DNA from: Minisyncoccota bacterium
GTDB lineage: Bacteria; Patescibacteriota; Minisyncoccia; Phycocordibacterales; UBA1550
Length of the DNA stretch: 34,934 bases
NCBI GenBank assembly: GCA_028712595.1
Contig: JAQTPS010000006.1
Location: forward strand, 1-34,934
Direction of reading: 5' to 3'
Shown here: positions 2,276 through 28,018 of the stretch, in pieces
How positions within the stretch are numbered: position 1 is the first letter of the stretch
How the letters are laid out: every line of letters begins with the position of its first letter
The notes under the pieces: generated by a model
What the model was told of the DNA's origin: nothing
The model's input: only the letters and a program-made list of their open reading frames with translations
Database searches by the model: none
Program-made: the position numbers and the translations under genes

Positions 2276-2379
2276 CGTTAATAACAAGCACGAGCCAAGG
2301 TTAACCCTCTGCGACCCCGACATTTCCGTTACGCAGAGACCCACGGCTCTTCTTCCCGCTTGTCGGGAATTTTTTAATC
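2276..2379 (+). promoter_or_regulatory. Structured 5' leader of rpsA with terminator-like hairpin
   Basis: Three stems can be drawn. GAGCC (2292-2296) pairs with GGCTC (2345-2349) and encloses CTCTGCG (2307-2313) paired with CGCAGAG (2332-2338). Downstream, TTCCCG (2353-2358) pairs with CGGGAA (2364-2369) and is followed by six T residues (2370-2375), ending four bases before the ATG. No Shine-Dalgarno sequence is present. The last hairpin has the form of an intrinsic terminator, so the leader could attenuate transcription or act as a translational operator. In E. coli the rpsA leader also has successive hairpins, lacks a good Shine-Dalgarno and is autoregulated by S1. Confidence 0.55.
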
Positions 2380-3489
2380 ATGAAAGAAAAAAAAGAAGTA
2401 GAAAAAGTAGTAGAAGCTCCTCTTTCCTTGATGGCAAAGCTGATGGTGGATTCCAAGAATCCTCCGGAAATCGATGCCCTTGTTGAGGGTCCGGTTTTGA
2501 GTGTAGAAAAGTCGAGTGTATATATTGACCTCGGCCCAGTTGGCACAGGAATTATTTATGGACGTGAGTTCATCAATGCTCGCGATGTTATAAAGAAATT
2601 AAACATCGGCGACATCATCACTGCGAAAGTTGTAGACACAGACAATAGCGACGGATATATAGAACTTTCTCTCAAGGAAGCTCGTCAAGCTATCATTTGG
2701 AGCGAAGCCGAGGAAGCAATCAAATCCAAGAAAGCTCTCGAGCTCATGGTAAAAGACGCAAATAAGGGCGGACTTATCGTTGAGTGGCAAGGTATTCAAG
2801 GCTTTCTCCCTGCATCACAACTAAAAAGCGAGCACTATCCACGCATCGAGGACGGCGACAAAGATAAAATATTGGTGGAATTGAAGAAACTCATCGGCAA
2901 GCGCATCGCGATGACTATCATCTCTGCGCTTCCAAAAGAAGGCAAGCTCATCTTTTCTGAAAAAGAGCGAGGCGTTAAGGAAAAACGCGAAATTTCAGGT
3001 AAATATTCTGTCGGCGACGAACTTGATGGTTCTGTCTCGGGACTTGTTGACTTCGGAGTGTTCGTAAAACTCGAAGATGGGATCGAAGGACTTGTTCACA
3101 TTTCCGAAATTGGATGGGGGCTCGTTGATGATCCACGAAAAATCTTCAAGATAGGAGAAAAAATCCGTGTAAAGGTTATCGAAATAAAAGACGGTAAAAT
3201 TTCTCTCTCTATAAAAGCTCTCAAGGAAAATCCTTGGAAAGAAGCGGAAAAACGCTATAAGAAAAGTGATGAAGTTACGGGTGTTGTTATCAAATTCAAT
3301 CACTATGGCGCGCTTGTGTCTCTAGAGGAAGGTATTGCCGGATTGGTTCACATTTCTGAATTCGGCACAGAAGAAAAACTTAGAAAAACTCTTGAACTAG
3401 GAAGAACATACTCATTTGTTATCACGCTCTTTGATTCAAAAGAGCAAAAAATGACTCTTTCATACAAAGAGAAAAAGGAAACCAAATAA
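2380..3489 (+). CDS. rpsA: 30S ribosomal protein S1
   Basis: The 369-residue protein consists of four S1 RNA-binding repeats at about residues 34-102, 119-197, 208-281 and 296-365. The third and fourth have the classical form (GVFVKLEDGIEGLVHISE and GALVSLEEGIAGLVHISE). Six repeats are usual in proteobacteria, and four is common in Gram-positive bacteria and CPR. S1 binds mRNA on the small subunit and helps structured or leaderless-poor messages to be translated. The N-terminus is highly charged. The gene stands alone, with its own promoter, a structured leader without Shine-Dalgarno, and a strong terminator 7 bases after the stop. Confidence 0.93.
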   Translation: MKEKKEVEKVVEAPLSLMAKLMVDSKNPPEIDALVEGPVLSVEKSSVYIDLGPVGTGIIYGREFINARDVIKKLNIGDIITAKVVDTDNSDGYIELSLKEARQAIIWSEAEEAIKSKKALELMVKDANKGGLIVEWQGIQGFLPASQLKSEHYPRIEDGDKDKILVELKKLIGKRIAMTIISALPKEGKLIFSEKERGVKEKREISGKYSVGDELDGSVSGLVDFGVFVKLEDGIEGLVHISEIGWGLVDDPRKIFKIGEKIRVKVIEIKDGKISLSIKALKENPWKEAEKRYKKSDEVTGVVIKFNHYGALVSLEEGIAGLVHISEFGTEEKLRKTLELGRTYSFVITLFDSKEQKMTLSYKEKKETK

Positions 3490-3538: not shown

Positions 3539-4135
3539 TTAATTAACTTGCCCTGTGGCTTGTTCGCGTCCAATCTCCAAAATCAGCCCGAGGGCTTCCG
3601 CCGCTTTTTTGGCTGTTTTGTCTATGGCTGGAATTTCGGCTTTTTTGTATTTCCCAATTATGAAATCTATCGTCGCGTCTTCCCCTTTTGGTTTTTTTAG
3701 TTTGCCGGAAGCAGTAGTTGGACTTATGCCTATTCGCAAACGCGCGAAAGCGGTCGTTTTTAGCGCCTTGATGACAGATTCAAGACCTTTGTGTCCACCA
3801 GAACTTCGGTTAAAAGAAATTCTCATTGTGCCAAGAGGCAAATCGAGGTCGTCATACACCACGACGGTACGTTCCGCGTCTTTGCTATTTTTAATGAGAG
3901 ACGAAATGCTTTTGCCAGAAAGATTCATATAATTATCCGGCTCAACAAGAACAACTTTCTTTTTTTCTTTTCCAAATGTTCCTTTTGACAAGAGCGCTTT
4001 CAAGTTTTTGTCTTTTTCCCATTCTGGGAAATCATATTTCTTTCGAAATTGTTCCAAAACCCTGCGACCAGTATTGTGTCGCGTTCCTTCATATTCTTCT
4101 CCCGGATTTCCGAGACCAACTATTACATATTGCAT
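3539..4135 (-). CDS. pth: Peptidyl-tRNA hydrolase
   Basis: This 198-residue enzyme frees tRNA from peptidyl-tRNA that has dropped off the ribosome. The N-terminal GLGNPG motif supplies N10, and the catalytic histidine is H20 in TRHNTG. The other site residues are visible: N71 in YMNLSG, D95 in YDDLDLP and H115 in GGHKGL. The residue after H115 is lysine where E. coli has asparagine, a variation known in other bacteria. The length is normal. The start is supported by a TATACT hexamer ending 7 bases upstream, which predicts a leaderless mRNA. Confidence 0.95.
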   Translation of the reverse strand: MQYVIVGLGNPGEEYEGTRHNTGRRVLEQFRKKYDFPEWEKDKNLKALLSKGTFGKEKKKVVLVEPDNYMNLSGKSISSLIKNSKDAERTVVVYDDLDLPLGTMRISFNRSSGGHKGLESVIKALKTTAFARLRIGISPTTASGKLKKPKGEDATIDFIIGKYKKAEIPAIDKTAKKAAEALGLILEIGREQATGQVN

Positions 4136-10442: not shown

Positions 10443-11840
10443 TTAAAGTTGAGACTGAACCGAGGTTGCATTAGCTAAATTACCTCCAATAGTATCAATG
10501 TCTTTTTGATATTTATCGGCGTATTCCATCGTTTGAGAACCATAAAATGCAAGAGATGGCTTGTTTGCGTTTGCCCAACCAGCTAGATAACGGAGGGCAG
10601 CAAGACGCTCTGAAGCGCGAGTTCCGGCGTCTGCGCCGTTATCTTTCATCAGTAATGCTGTAGCAAATATTGCGTCGCGGGCATTCCAAGGATTTGGAGG
10701 ATTGGAACCCGACATCGCAGCAATTCTTTTTTCATAAAGAATCCATGTCGAAGGAATAAACTGCGAAGGCCCCATTGCCCCTCCCCAGCCATAACCGCAA
10801 GAGACACCGGGACCGACTCTGTCTCGCTCTGCTTTGCTACAAGGCCTTGCAGAAACAGGCATTTTGTCGGGGTCTAATCCAAGACGCGACGTAATGTCCT
10901 TAAAAATCGGAATATCGCGCTTTGGATGCATATCTGCCTGCCATGTGCCAGTCCCCTGGTTCTCTCCGAGGTTTGATTCTATTGTTAAAATTCCCAAAAT
11001 AACTGCTGGGCGTACGCCTGTTTTTGCGCTCGCTTCGTTGGCATAAGCAAGAGCAGTTCCAAATGGAATTGATTTCGTTCCATTCAATCTGAAGAGTTCT
11101 GAGCGAATAGCAGCGGCGGCCTGTTGATTTTTCTTTAAATCTTCTTGTTGTTCGGCAAGAGTTTTGTTGGTAAGGGTCAATAAATGTTGTTTTTGGGTCT
11201 GGCTTATTGTAACATTCTTTTTTTCAAGTTCTTGTATTTTGCGGAGCGCTATTGTTTCAGCCTGCTTATCCTCTAAAGCTGTTTTCTGTTCTTCGGTTAT
11301 TTTCTTTGCAGTATCAATCTTTACGAGAGAATCTTTTATTGACTGATTAAGATAATCAAATGAGTCTAGATCCGCAAAAAAATCCGATATTTTTTTATCT
11401 GAAAGCATCACTTCTGTGAGTGAATAAGAATCAATTTCGTTGGTTTTTCTAATAAGTTGCGCTAGGGAATCCCGTTCGCGGTCAATTTTTGCTTGGTAAT
11501 TATTGATAGTTTGACTCTTTAGCGTAATATCTTGCCCAAGATTGTTAATAACTGCAGTGCGTAGCTTTATGGAATCCTCCGCTTTTTTTATTCGAGCTTT
11601 AAGTGAAGTGAGTTCTTTGCTCACAGTGGTTTTTACATTGAGGGTGCTTTCCTCCGCTTTTTTCAGTGCTTCTTCTTCTTTTGTGCATTCCGCCAGCGCA
11701 TTCTCAAGCTCTGTCTTGCTAAGCCCCGTAAATACCTCCGGGCATCCTCCTTCAGCGCGAGCAGAAGGAACAGAAGCCCTAAATTGAGAAACGAGCAACA
11801 AAAAAGCTACTGAAACTATAATGAGAAGACCTTTTTTCAT
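10443..11840 (-). CDS. Secreted coiled-coil protein with MltB-like lytic transglycosylase domain
   Basis: This 465-residue protein has a signal peptide (about residues 1-29, ending SARAE), a long charged coiled coil (about 42-250) and a C-terminal lysozyme-like domain (about 258-450). The catalytic acid is E288 in LTIESNLG, and the hallmark GYGWGGAMGPSQFIPSTW lies at 349-366 as in MltB/SLT_2 enzymes. It should cleave peptidoglycan outside the cell. The coiled coil resembles that of PcsB and EnvC, which couple wall cutting to division, but here the fused enzyme is a transglycosylase (inference for the role). An extended -10 (TGATATAAT) ends 9 bases before the ATG. Confidence 0.88.
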   Translation of the reverse strand: MKKGLLIIVSVAFLLLVSQFRASVPSARAEGGCPEVFTGLSKTELENALAECTKEEEALKKAEESTLNVKTTVSKELTSLKARIKKAEDSIKLRTAVINNLGQDITLKSQTINNYQAKIDRERDSLAQLIRKTNEIDSYSLTEVMLSDKKISDFFADLDSFDYLNQSIKDSLVKIDTAKKITEEQKTALEDKQAETIALRKIQELEKKNVTISQTQKQHLLTLTNKTLAEQQEDLKKNQQAAAAIRSELFRLNGTKSIPFGTALAYANEASAKTGVRPAVILGILTIESNLGENQGTGTWQADMHPKRDIPIFKDITSRLGLDPDKMPVSARPCSKAERDRVGPGVSCGYGWGGAMGPSQFIPSTWILYEKRIAAMSGSNPPNPWNARDAIFATALLMKDNGADAGTRASERLAALRYLAGWANANKPSLAFYGSQTMEYADKYQKDIDTIGGNLANATSVQSQL

Positions 11841-11943: not shown

Positions 11944-12636
11944 CTACTTTTTGGCTGAAGGTTTCTCTTTTTCTTTTTCTGCTGGTTTTTCTGCTTCTCC
12001 CTCGATAGCACCTTCACCTTCTTCATCTTTCTTGCCTTTCTTTTCAACTTCAATTGAGGATAGATCCACAACTGGCTCTTCTATTACTTCTTCTTTTGCT
12101 TCAGCGACAGCCACGACGACTTCACCCGGGTTGGTTACTAACGTTACGCCCTTTGGAAGTTTAATGTCTTTTGCGGAAATCTTACTATCAAGAGCAACGA
12201 GGGAAGAAAGATCTACAGATATATTGTGAGGCAAATTTTCAGGTTGAGCCTTGATTTCAAGTTCGTGGAGAACCTTGATGAGGTTAGCGCCCAAATCTTT
12301 AACAGCAGGAGCAACGCCGATGAATTCGATAGGAACTGCAACATATACTTCCTGGCCTTTTTCAATTACGTAAAAATCAGCGTGAATTGGTTCCCCGCGC
12401 ACTGGGTCCATTTGTACTTCGTAAATAAGAGCGTTTAATTTGCCCTTTGGCACTTCAAGAGAAATAACAGTGGATTCTCCGGCCGTTTTCCAAACCTTCT
12501 TGAATTCGTTCATACTAAAAGCGCAGGAAGTCGCCTTTTCCTTGTGACCATAATAAACTGCCGGAATAAAGCCCTTTTTGCGCATTTCCGCAAGCTTGGT
12601 TTTACCGTCGCGAAGTTCTCCTTTGAGAGTAAGCAT
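11944..12636 (-). CDS. rplY: 50S ribosomal protein L25 (CTC/TL5 form)
   Basis: The 230-residue protein binds 5S rRNA. The N-terminal L25 domain (about 1-92) contains RKKGFIPAVYYG and MDPVRGEPIHADFYVI. A second beta domain (about 93-180), as in TL5/CTC proteins, is followed by an acidic and lysine-rich low-complexity tail to the C-terminus. This long form is usual in Gram-positive and CPR genomes. The start is supported by TATACT ending 7 bases upstream, which predicts a leaderless mRNA, and a terminator lies downstream, so the gene is probably monocistronic. Confidence 0.94.
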   Translation of the reverse strand: MLTLKGELRDGKTKLAEMRKKGFIPAVYYGHKEKATSCAFSMNEFKKVWKTAGESTVISLEVPKGKLNALIYEVQMDPVRGEPIHADFYVIEKGQEVYVAVPIEFIGVAPAVKDLGANLIKVLHELEIKAQPENLPHNISVDLSSLVALDSKISAKDIKLPKGVTLVTNPGEVVVAVAEAKEEVIEEPVVDLSSIEVEKKGKKDEEGEGAIEGEAEKPAEKEKEKPSAKK

Positions 12637-12719: not shown

Positions 12720-13589
12720 TTAGAACATATTGAAGAGGCGTAGGCGTTTTTCCACAACAGACGAAATCGCATCCACGGAGCTTTTTGCAAATTTGTAGGG
12801 AACTATTTCGTCAGGATTTTCCTTGAGAAATTTCTCTAATGCATTCCTATATGCCACACGAATTTCCGTATTAATGTGAACCACGGCAATTCCAGCTTTA
12901 ATCGCAGAAACAAAATCCTCGTCGCTTGTCCCAGAACCTCCATGCAAAACAAGTGGAATTCCAGTAGACTTGCGGATTTCTCGAATGCGGTCTATGTTCA
13001 AACGCGGTTCAGGAATATTTCGAAACATTCCATGAATATTCCCGACCGACGGAGCAAAAAGGTCGACTCCGGTTTCTTTCACAAAACGTTTTGCATCTTC
13101 GGGCGTCGTAAGATTTTCAAGAGAAACTCCTTCTGGAATTGCATCCAAAACTTTTGATGATGTGCCGATGTAGCCGAGTTCCGCTTCAACAAGAACTTCC
13201 CTGCCTACGCTTCGCGCGTACTCTACACACTTCTTTGCTAGCGCCCTATTTTCTTCAAAAGAAAGTTTTGCGCCGTCAAAAATAACGGAGTCAAAACCCG
13301 CATCGATAGCTTCTTTTACGCGCTCGAAAGAATATGTATGGTCGGCATTTAGATAAATTGGGTAATTTATTTCCTCGCGCAAGCTTTTTACCATTGCAAC
13401 AACTTGCTTTACCCCAATAAAATCACGTTCCCCTTCTGAAACGCCAATAATAACAGGAATACTGAGAGCCCTAGCGCCATTTACTACACCCCAAAAACCA
13501 ACGCTGTCTGAAATATTAAAGTGTCCCAGAGCTACGCCTTTTGCTTCTGCATTTTTGATCGCTTCTTTAAGTGGTGGAATGTTACTCAT
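12720..13589 (-). CDS. fba: Class II fructose-bisphosphate aldolase family protein
   Basis: This 289-residue zinc aldolase joins or splits fructose 1,6-bisphosphate. The family motifs are in order: NADHTYS (81-87, D83 and H84), DGAKLSFEEN (105-114), EAELGYIG (135-142), SVGNIHG (181-187, H186), LHGGSG (215-220, H216) and HINTEIR (238-244). H84, H186 and H216 are the expected zinc ligands. It is smaller than E. coli FbaA and close to the GatY/KbaY and Bacillus FbaA type, so a tagatose-bisphosphate substrate cannot be excluded. It is divergent to a PfkB-family kinase, which fits a shared sugar phosphate step. Confidence 0.9.
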   Translation of the reverse strand: MSNIPPLKEAIKNAEAKGVALGHFNISDSVGFWGVVNGARALSIPVIIGVSEGERDFIGVKQVVAMVKSLREEINYPIYLNADHTYSFERVKEAIDAGFDSVIFDGAKLSFEENRALAKKCVEYARSVGREVLVEAELGYIGTSSKVLDAIPEGVSLENLTTPEDAKRFVKETGVDLFAPSVGNIHGMFRNIPEPRLNIDRIREIRKSTGIPLVLHGGSGTSDEDFVSAIKAGIAVVHINTEIRVAYRNALEKFLKENPDEIVPYKFAKSSVDAISSVVEKRLRLFNMF

Positions 13590-19553: not shown

Positions 19554-20423
19554 TTATTCATGTTCACTTGCAATTTGTCCGCCTAACGTGCGAAGTTCGG
19601 CAAGCGCGCTTCCGCCCTGCTTTTGGTCGGGAGGATTGCCGTGCCATTTGTAATCATTCTGGAACATCTTTACTCCTTTCCCAGGAATAGTGTGAGCAAT
19701 AATTATAGACGGCTTTTCAAAAATAGCTTTTGCTTCCTCGACCGCATTGACGATTGCTTCCATGTTGTGTCCGTCAATTTCGAGAACGTGCCAGCCAAAA
19801 GATTCAAACTTATCGCGTAACGGTTCAAGGGGCATTACGTTTTCTGTAAAGCCATCAATCTGAATATTGTTGCGGTCAACTATGGCGATTAGGTTGCGAA
19901 GTCGTTCTTTGCCAGCAAGCATCATCGCTTCCCACACTGCTCCTTCGTCGAGCTCGCCGTCACCCATAAAGCAGTAAATAAACCGACTCGACGAAAATCC
20001 TTTATCAAGGCGGTCGGCAAAAGCCATACCGATTGCCTGCGAAAGACCATGACCAAGTGGACCCGAACTTGTTTCAAGCATAGGCAGGAATTCTCGATGT
20101 GGATGACCTTGAAGCCGTGAACCAAATTTGCGGAGAGTTTTAAGTTCTTCAACTGGGAAATATCCGGAATGGGCCATCGCCGCGTAAAGCACCGGACAAA
20201 TGTGACCATTAGAGAGCACTAGTCGATCGCGTTCTTCCCAAGACGGATTCCTTGGGTCGTGTTTTAAAATATGAAAATAAAATGCGGAAAAAACATCCGC
20301 CATTCCGAGCGAGCCGGCAGTGTGACCGCTCTTTGCTTCCATCAGCATTTCAACAATTGATTTTCTGATTTCAAGGGCTTTTTCTTCAAGGAACGTTATT
20401 TTGTCATCACTAAGATGAAGCAT
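19554..20423 (-). CDS. Transketolase, N-terminal half (TPP-binding subunit)
   Basis: This 289-residue protein carries the thiamine diphosphate domain of transketolase. It shows SGHTAGSLGMAD (32-43), the HPHREF and SSGPLGHGLSQAIGMA stretches, and the cofactor motif GDGELDEG (154-161) ending in DRNN (183-186). It works with the C-terminal subunit encoded two genes downstream. Its start at 20423 lies 4 bases after the stop of the rpe-like gene. The gene belongs to the gap-rpiB-rpe-tkt cluster, which would convert pentose phosphates into fructose 6-phosphate and glyceraldehyde 3-phosphate. Confidence 0.92.
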   Translation of the reverse strand: MLHLSDDKITFLEEKALEIRKSIVEMLMEAKSGHTAGSLGMADVFSAFYFHILKHDPRNPSWEERDRLVLSNGHICPVLYAAMAHSGYFPVEELKTLRKFGSRLQGHPHREFLPMLETSSGPLGHGLSQAIGMAFADRLDKGFSSSRFIYCFMGDGELDEGAVWEAMMLAGKERLRNLIAIVDRNNIQIDGFTENVMPLEPLRDKFESFGWHVLEIDGHNMEAIVNAVEEAKAIFEKPSIIIAHTIPGKGVKMFQNDYKWHGNPPDQKQGGSALAELRTLGGQIASEHE

Positions 20424-22837: not shown

Positions 22838-24250
22838 CTACTTAAGCAACTGTTCAAATAGTTTTTTGAGAGTGCTCGGATTTGCGCTTCCTTTTGAGGC
22901 CTTCATTCCCTGCCCAACTAGAAACTGCATTGCTACGACTTTCCCTCCACGATATTCGTCGGCAACTTTCGGATTGTCTTTAATTATTTTTTCACAAATT
23001 GCTTTGAGGGCGCTCTCGTCGTTTGTTTGCATAAAGCCCTTTTCTTTGGCAACAGTTTCTGCATCCCCACCATTTGTGTACAAAACTGCAAGAGTATCTT
23101 TTGCGCCACGAGAAGAAAGTTTGCCTTCATTTATCATCCGAATAAGTTTTGCGAAAGAAACCGGCGTTAAAGCACCGACAGAAGAACCGCCTTTGGCTAG
23201 TCCGACAACGTCAGAAGTTAGATAGTTTTCAGCAAGCAATACAAGTTTTTTGTCTTTGAGCAAAGTCACCGTGTCTTCAAAAAATTTCCCTAGCGTTAAA
23301 TCGCCCAAGAAAAGGTCAACTGAGATTGGCTTTAGAGAATAGTCACGCACGAGACGCGCGCGTTTTTCCCAAGGCAATTCCGGCATTTCTTTTTGAAGTG
23401 CCTCTTTCGAAAGTTCCGGGATTTCGCTTAATTGAAGTTTAGGCAAATCGGGGTCTGGGAAATATCTGTAATCATGAGCGCTTTCTTTTTTTCGTTGAGT
23501 GAAGGTAATTTCTTTTATTTCATCCCACCCTCTCGTCTCCTGCACAATTTCCCCTTCGCCGGTGTCCAAAATGTGGGTCATGCGCTCAACTTCGTAGGCA
23601 ACAGCTCGCTCGACAGAGCGGAATGAGTTTAGGTTCTTCACTTCGACTTTTGTGCCAAGCTCTCCTTCTTTGTTTGATATTGAAATGTTTGCCTCAACAC
23701 GCATTTCCCCTTTTTCCATATTTGCGTCAGAAACACCAAGCGTTCGAAGCAAAAGTTGCAGTTCGCGCGCAAAAGCGCTTGCTTCCTCCGCCGAGTGTAT
23801 CGTCGGAGTCGTCACGAGTTCCATGAGTGGAACACCAGCGCGGTTGTAGTCCACCAAACTTCCCCTGCTTCCTTCGTGAATAGAAGTTGCGGTGTCTTCT
23901 TCAAGGTGAATACGTTCAAGCAGGACGCCGTTTATGCTACCGCCAGAAACGAGAGGATATTTGTACTGACTAATTTGATAACCTTTTGGGATGTCGGGAT
24001 AAAAATAATTTTTCCGGTCAAATTCGCTGAAGTCGGCGAGCTTTCCTCCGACAGCAAGTCCTACTTTCAAAACATGCTTCACCGCCTCTTTGTTAATAAC
24101 AGGAAGAGTGCCGGGGTGTGCCATACACACAGGACAAATGTGAACATTCGGCTCCGAATTAAACGGGTTGTTTGCAGAATTGCAGAACATTTTTGTCTTT
24201 GTTTTCAGTTCTGCGTGAATTTCCAAACCAATAGTGAGAGTGTAACTCAT
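22838..24250 (-). CDS. gatB: Aspartyl/glutamyl-tRNA amidotransferase subunit B
   Basis: GatB (470 residues) is the kinase and tRNA-binding subunit of GatCAB, which converts Glu-tRNA-Gln or Asp-tRNA-Asn to the amidated form. It begins TIGLEIHAELKT and contains the NPFNSEPN, CPVCMAHPGTLP, DRKNYFYPDIPKGYQISQY and DYNRAGVPLMELVT blocks. The C-terminal third is the YqeY-like tail domain. gatA and gatC are not in the window. The start is supported by an extended -10 (TGGTACAAT) ending 7 bases upstream, inside the intergenic edge of obg, which predicts a leaderless mRNA. Confidence 0.95.
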   Translation of the reverse strand: MSYTLTIGLEIHAELKTKTKMFCNSANNPFNSEPNVHICPVCMAHPGTLPVINKEAVKHVLKVGLAVGGKLADFSEFDRKNYFYPDIPKGYQISQYKYPLVSGGSINGVLLERIHLEEDTATSIHEGSRGSLVDYNRAGVPLMELVTTPTIHSAEEASAFARELQLLLRTLGVSDANMEKGEMRVEANISISNKEGELGTKVEVKNLNSFRSVERAVAYEVERMTHILDTGEGEIVQETRGWDEIKEITFTQRKKESAHDYRYFPDPDLPKLQLSEIPELSKEALQKEMPELPWEKRARLVRDYSLKPISVDLFLGDLTLGKFFEDTVTLLKDKKLVLLAENYLTSDVVGLAKGGSSVGALTPVSFAKLIRMINEGKLSSRGAKDTLAVLYTNGGDAETVAKEKGFMQTNDESALKAICEKIIKDNPKVADEYRGGKVVAMQFLVGQGMKASKGSANPSTLKKLFEQLLK

Positions 24251-27004: not shown

Positions 27005-28018
27005 TTATTTTTTCTGAATAACTATGTTTTTAGGTTTGCCAAACGAAAAAGATAGAATGTTCTCTGCGGAAGTATCGAGGATACGCCTGATTGCTTCATC
27101 GGTATTAAATGCGTTGTGTGGCGAAATAATAGCCCGTGGATGTTCAATCAAATAATGATTGGCAAGAGTAGTTTTCAAACTTTCTTCGTTAGGGTGAGGC
27201 GCAAAAAAGAGCTTCGTCTCATCCTCAATGTACCCCTCTTCCTCTAGGACGTCGAGCCCAACACCGATAAGTATGCCTTCGCGCAATCCTTTTACTATTG
27301 CGTTCGTTTCAACCAACGCCCCGCGCGCAGTGTTGATGAGTATGCTTCCTTTTTTCATTTTCCCAATGTTTTCGCTGTTCAAGATGTGGTGCGTTTCTTT
27401 CATATAAGGAAGATGCATACTGACCACATCGGATTTCGCAAGAATTTCGTCAAAAGATGTGTATCTAAATCCGAGCTCGGCCGTCATATTTTCTTTAGGA
27501 TACGCGTCAAACGCAAGGACATTCATTCCAAAACCTTTTGCGATTTGTATCATATGCATACCAATATTGCCCGTTCCAACCACTCCCATCGTTTTTCCCC
27601 TCAAATCAAATCCTCGCAGTCCCTCTTGAGAAAATAATCCCTCGTCTTGAACTTTCTTTATGCATTCATACAACTTGCGAGAAACAGTGAGAAGAAGCCC
27701 GAACGCAAATTCAGCAACTGTGTTTGCGCCATATGCAGGCACAAAAGAAACACTAATTCCCCTCTTCGAAGCTTCCTCGACGTCCACGTTGTCATATCCA
27801 GTAGAACGAGCGGCGATATTTTTCAAGTTTGGGAAACGGTCAAGTTCTGCCTTCCCTACTTTGGAATTCACAAATACAGAAAGTACTTCCGCAGATTCGT
27901 CGCGAAGATCCGGATAATCGTCTAGTGAGCCCTTTAAAAACGTGATTTCGTGTCCTGCTAGCTTGTCTTTTACGTATGATGTCTCCCATTCTTCGTTGTA
28001 AAAATATGTGATTTTCAT
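27005..28018 (-). CDS. D-2-hydroxyacid dehydrogenase (D-lactate dehydrogenase-like)
   Basis: This 337-residue NAD-dependent dehydrogenase reduces a 2-oxoacid, most likely pyruvate to D-lactate. The nucleotide loop is GVVGTGNIG. The catalytic arginine is in NTARGALVET, the glutamate in the GLDVLEEEG stretch and the histidine in SPHNAFNTDEA. The SPHNAF form is close to D-lactate dehydrogenase. Fermentative lactate formation would re-oxidise the NADH from gap (inference). An extended -10 (TGATATAAT) ends 10 bases before the ATG, and the small YvlD-like gene follows. Confidence 0.88.
   Translation of the reverse strand: MKITYFYNEEWETSYVKDKLAGHEITFLKGSLDDYPDLRDESAEVLSVFVNSKVGKAELDRFPNLKNIAARSTGYDNVDVEEASKRGISVSFVPAYGANTVAEFAFGLLLTVSRKLYECIKKVQDEGLFSQEGLRGFDLRGKTMGVVGTGNIGMHMIQIAKGFGMNVLAFDAYPKENMTAELGFRYTSFDEILAKSDVVSMHLPYMKETHHILNSENIGKMKKGSILINTARGALVETNAIVKGLREGILIGVGLDVLEEEGYIEDETKLFFAPHPNEESLKTTLANHYLIEHPRAIISPHNAFNTDEAIRRILDTSAENILSFSFGKPKNIVIQKK

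Follow-up and report, generated by a model that had tools for sequence, protein, structure and literature searches.

The leader of rpsA in an uncultured Parcubacterium of the Candidatus Yonathbacteria (103 nt; positions 2277-2379, + strand, of the 34,934-nt stretch of DNA that was analysed, hereafter the window) is very probably a conserved cis-regulatory RNA, as judged from comparisons with related leaders. Within this genus we favour, with moderate confidence, the reading that it is an r-leader by which ribosomal protein S1 limits its own synthesis via transcription attenuation. The preliminary description had proposed an attenuator or a translational operator of rpsA, and the cis-regulatory sense of that proposal is supported by compensatory changes and by a predicted transcript start upstream of the stems.

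Anatomy of the leader and its neighbourhood

The gene downstream of the leader (2380-3489, + strand) encodes a 369-aa homologue of ribosomal protein S1 with four S1 domains (PF00575 x4, E 8.7e-41), and NCBIfam models for 30S ribosomal protein S1 match its product below their full-length cut-offs. The protein was matched in all 61 relatives searched, in a few of them with weak matches only. Next to rpsA lie pth, signal peptidase I and hisS, plus a gene with a beta-lactamase fold in the opposite orientation.

Upstream of the leader, positions 2171-2232 form an inverted repeat of 26 bp, without mismatches, around a 10-nt loop. It ends about 8 nt before the -35 box of rpsA and is perhaps a bidirectional terminator or an insulator; hairpins of other sequence occur at about the same place in loci L005, L010, L012 and L013. 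Sub-threshold Rfam matches of miRNA and snoRNA families on this palindrome were dismissed as chance. For the beta-lactamase-fold ORF (1502-2209, - strand), the GTG listed as its start falls within the palindrome, and the true start is probably an ATG at about 2129.

The predicted promoter (2241-2269, + strand) consists of TTGCTT (2241-2246), a 17-nt spacer and TAGATT (2264-2269), the latter a weak -10 hexamer, and places the transcript start at about 2276-2277. Most leaders of the same genus show TTGC(N)TTTTT ... TATANT aligned about 7 nt 5' of [AG]TTAA (GTTAAT), which would make the leader the first part of the transcript. The predicted start thus lies upstream of all the stems, and not downstream of them, which the preliminary description had named as evidence against regulation.

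The leader would start with an A/U-rich, single-stranded 5' end, GTTAATA (2277-2283), a possible S1 contact whose TTAA is invariant in 14 leaders of the genus. It continues with ACAAGC (2284-2289), the 5' strand of an anti-terminator-like pairing, P0, whose partner is GCUUGU (2358-2363; 98.8% of cells paired). P1 is formed by GAGCC (2292-2296) and GGCTC (2345-2349), and is extended by P1b, GG (2299-2300) with CC (2341-2342), in the RNAalifold consensus. A conserved internal-loop motif, UUAACC (2301-2306), separates these stems from the P2 hairpin (2307-2338), made of CTCTGCG (2307-2313) and CGCAGAG (2332-2338); its order-wide core, UAAY, has flanking stems in rpsA leaders. There follows an intrinsic-terminator-like hairpin (2353-2375), with TTCCCG (2353-2358), the loop CTTGT, CGGGAA (2364-2369) and six T residues (2370-2375), and AATC (2376-2379) leads to the ATG at 2380. 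Inspection of the sequence located at these bases all the stems that had been named, together with the T-run, AATC and the ATG; P0 and the UAAC internal loop were not among the elements named at that stage. The P0 3' strand lies inside the terminator-like hairpin, in its loop.

The hairpin and its T-run have the sequence-level make-up of an intrinsic terminator 5' of a coding region. However, the folding energy of a 161-nt fold was not significant (z = -0.94, with 36 of 200 shuffles equally good), and the A/T-rich window contains six terminator-like sites against 3.3 expected by chance. A comparison with other leaders was therefore needed.

The preliminary description was right that rpsA lacks a Shine-Dalgarno sequence, but this is not distinctive, because none of the 27 genes of the window has GGAG, GAGG or AGGA in the usual place; we hence discarded it as evidence of regulation. 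Around ten TATAAT-like hexamers occur among these 27 genes at a distance of 3-12 nt 5' of the start codon, as compared to 0.8 per 10 nt further upstream. Genes with such hexamers include 3539-4135, 10443-11840, 11944-12636, 12720-13589, 19554-20423, 22838-24250 and 27005-28018, all on the - strand. Leaderless genes, or genes with very short leaders, thus seem common in the window, the rpsA leader being an exception.

Covariation and a candidate competing pairing within the genus

We aligned 14 distinct leaders of the same genus, from GTTAAT through the terminator. For P0, P1 and P2 together, 90.0% of the cells were paired, against 75.9% after shuffling, and none of 500 shuffles did as well. 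There were 40 cells changed on both sides (13.4 in shuffled alignments), 12 of the 18 pairs showed double changes, and the covariation score was 0.458 versus 0.200; shifting the partners by 1-3 columns lowered pairing to 29-44%. Individually, P2 has double changes in 7 of 7 pairs and 92.8% of its cells paired, and P1 in 4 of 5 pairs with 75% of cells paired, its pairing being poor in L004, L006 and L010. Three of the six P0 pairs are invariant, and its outer pair appears as AU in seven leaders, GC in five and GU in two, without a single mismatch among the 14. RNAalifold independently returned the same stems plus the GG:CC extension (P1b). Likewise, in 15 of the 16 genomes of the genus the covariance model R1 matched exactly one site; the remaining genome, G015, has its rpsA truncated at the start of a contig. 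Compensatory changes in homologous leaders, whose lack would have spoken against the preliminary description, are thus abundant, both here and in the Nomurabacteria (see below). As far as comparison of sequences goes, the fold is conserved and P0 covaries in this genus.

A hairpin with a T-rich tail is present in all 14 leaders, with a variable inner part. In four of them (L004, L012, L014 and L015) the terminator stem includes GCUUGU, so that P0 and the terminator would be mutually exclusive; in L001, L005, L006 and L009 most of GCUUGU falls in the loop. In the window, P0 shares one base pair with the terminator stem and otherwise spans its loop; since the overlap amounts to one pair only, the two structures would exclude each other less strictly here than in the sister species. 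With its P0 3' strand in the terminator hairpin, the leader could switch between anti-terminator-like and terminator forms. Computed energies for the window leader, -23.1 kcal/mol for P1, P2 and terminator versus -19.7 kcal/mol for P0, P1 and P2, make the terminator form the more stable one and count against this reading. In L009 and L016 about 85-130 nt separate the terminator from the ATG, so that transcription is a likelier target than translation; the interval in L009 contains about 85 nt of additional A/T-rich DNA.

Long P0 matches overlapping the terminator also occur in L040, L052 and L056. An automatic search for P0 complementarity in all leaders with a terminator was positive for 23% of them versus 10% of control pairs, a modest excess obtained with a relaxed motif that misplaced some cores. 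P0 is consequently well supported by sequence in this genus only, and is suggestive elsewhere.

The UAAC core in other lineages of the order

Across the order, we examined 205 non-redundant regions upstream of rpsA with a descriptor that scores the stems flanking TAAC. At a score of at least 26, TAAC with flanking stems was found in 76 of the 205, versus 6-24 for other letter orders (median about 9), the top control permutation, AATC, also picking up the variant TAATC. At a score of 30, the descriptor retrieved 63 of the 205 leaders versus 1.8% of 855 random segments from the same loci. About 45% of the leaders of the order fall below the descriptor threshold of 24. What recurs order-wide is the core formed by P1, the UAAC internal loop and P2, and many other lineages also have a 5' end resembling ATTATTA or ATTAAAA. 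Where the terminator is lacking, the distance from the end of the P1 3' strand to the ATG is usually about 8-15 nt; in those lineages the core would accordingly act on the start of translation, probably by masking the start region.

The covariation in the order-wide alignment A4 involves some circularity, since the descriptor had served to select the sequences and the central part of the P2 loop had been removed. This does not apply to a hold-out model, R3, which we built from 22 other lineages and no member of the window's genus. Its sole match in the window at E <= 10 was the leader, at 2284-2351 (E = 0.055). A search of 197 genomes of the order gave 13 matches at E < 0.05, every one of them immediately 5' of rpsA; six had not been used for training, and one of the six is closely related to a training sequence. 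At weaker E-values (about 0.05 and above) there were off-target matches elsewhere. As a genome-wide finder R3 was rejected, since it holds too little information and misses the window leader at whole-genome scale. Another model, R2, matches Nomurabacteria-like members only.

Leaders of the Nomurabacteria have the same layout in other letters, GC(A)GGAU-UUAGG-GUAACC-P2-AA-CCUAA-...-AUCCGC, then GCGGAU-TTTTT. The pairing partner of GC(A)GGAU, AUCCGC, doubles as the 5' strand of the terminator AUCCGC..GCGGAU-T5, and covariation is seen. In L137 (2406-2476) and other leaders of this group, the 3' part CCUAAGCCUUAUAUCC offers two partners for UUAGG, CCUAA or CCUUA, both conserved, and these alternatives might represent a second switch. 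The stretch GGGUAACC...GAACCU in L095, L108 and L137, with its GGUAACC...GAACC, resembles the helix 45 region at the 3' end of 16S rRNA, and these leaders may perhaps mimic rRNA.

Beyond the order, 40 regions upstream of rpsA in the rest of the phylum yielded no signal of the core above control; R1 matched neither these 40 regions nor the E. coli rpsA leader, and the descriptor did not match the latter either. Of the two origins that the preliminary description had offered, an ancestral version of the Candidate Phyla Radiation (CPR) finds no backing in these results, which agree with the other, independence from the E. coli leader. At the gathering threshold, no family of Rfam release 15 matched the leader, either in the window or among 40 related loci; the sole match in the related loci was an RNase P elsewhere in L146. 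We see roughly even chances that the UAAC core defines an order-wide family of S1 leaders in Parcubacteria, containing in some lineages an S1-controlled terminator/anti-terminator switch, that evolved separately from the gamma-proteobacterial operator.

Proposed mechanism and relation to known systems

In the mechanism that we propose for this genus, transcription would begin at about position 2277, the nascent RNA would fold into P1 and P2 with the conserved UAAC loop between them, and ACAAGC could close the element by pairing with GCUUGU. Because GCUUGU is within the terminator hairpin just before the ATG, P0 and the hairpin would compete. With little free S1, P0 and P1 would persist, disfavouring the terminator and allowing the transcription of rpsA. 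Excess S1 would bind the A/U-rich 5' end or the UAAC region and the P0 strand would be melted or sequestered; with this strand lost, the terminator would form and transcription would stop before the ATG. Given that S1 of E. coli has a preference for A/U-rich single strands and opens RNA structure, the melting of P0 is a plausible route; it is less likely that S1 stabilises P0, which would result in positive feedback. We infer the ligand, the direction of control, by which excess S1 frees the terminator, and actual termination. S1 is named as the ligand because rpsA is the only common downstream gene, which is the criterion used for r-leaders (Eckert and Weinberg 2020, PMC7247131).

It is rather unlikely that the leader acts at translation only, with S1 or free 30S competing at P1 or at the terminator-like hairpin and the T-run hairpin being an operator stem. 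E. coli S1 does work so (PMC10931766) and, with P1 kept close to the ATG in most hairpin-less lineages, a translational role may be ancestral; however, the hairpin in this genus always has its T-rich tail and an inner part that varies freely, as expected of a terminator, and in L009 and L016 it is too far from the ATG for an operator. We consider it somewhat less probable still that rpsA is the target of a signal other than S1, be it another ribosomal protein, the assembly state of the 30S, a small molecule, temperature or a translation factor: the identity of the ligand is indeed read from the downstream gene, but the leader was found only upstream of rpsA, where tested, it matches no Rfam riboswitch, and S1 binds RNA and, in E. 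coli, controls its own synthesis. That this is an ordinary 5' UTR, whose hairpin is a readthrough terminator or an mRNA-stability stem with no regulatory role, would agree with the unremarkable single-sequence folding and the chance terminator-like sites of A/T-rich DNA, but is very improbable given the strong covariation, the conserved UAAC loop, the restriction to rpsA and the hold-out detection.

If S1 attenuation is true, it would be a second, unrelated solution to S1 autoregulation, in the CPR, and S1, a protein with little sequence preference, would have gained, more than once, a specific site in the mRNA that encodes it. Such control would also operate in organisms whose other genes mostly lack a Shine-Dalgarno sequence and often seem leaderless. 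The UAAC loop offers a concrete test of RNA recognition by S1, and the leader a rare handle on gene regulation in mostly uncultured bacteria that apparently use little Shine-Dalgarno pairing.

The 20 r-leader candidates of Eckert and Weinberg (2020, PMC7247131) belong to the same class of element and follow the same ligand criterion; the text of that paper mentions neither rpsA nor Parcubacteria, its three "protein S1" strings being mentions of S15 or S16. According to a review, S1 autoregulation is documented in gamma-proteobacteria only, and in E. coli S1 autorepression acts at translation, which sets a precedent for S1 feedback (PMC10931766). Within the papers searched, the literature on S1 control likewise covers gamma-proteobacteria only, and an order-wide family of S1 leaders of the r-leader type is apparently undescribed so far. 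Like the gamma-proteobacterial operator, exemplified by E. coli, the present element is a structured rpsA leader that lacks a Shine-Dalgarno sequence and, by our reading, would mediate S1 feedback; in contrast, it shares no sequence or model match with it, has a UAAC internal loop and a candidate terminator/anti-terminator layout, and occurs in an organism most of whose genes lack a Shine-Dalgarno sequence anyway. R-leaders with transcription attenuation are established in the L20, S4 and L10 leaders of Bacillus. The leader described here differs from these in its protein, S1, and in its fold, which is not in Rfam release 15, but resembles them in being a conserved leader with a candidate alternative pairing and a predicted intrinsic terminator before the first ribosomal-protein gene.
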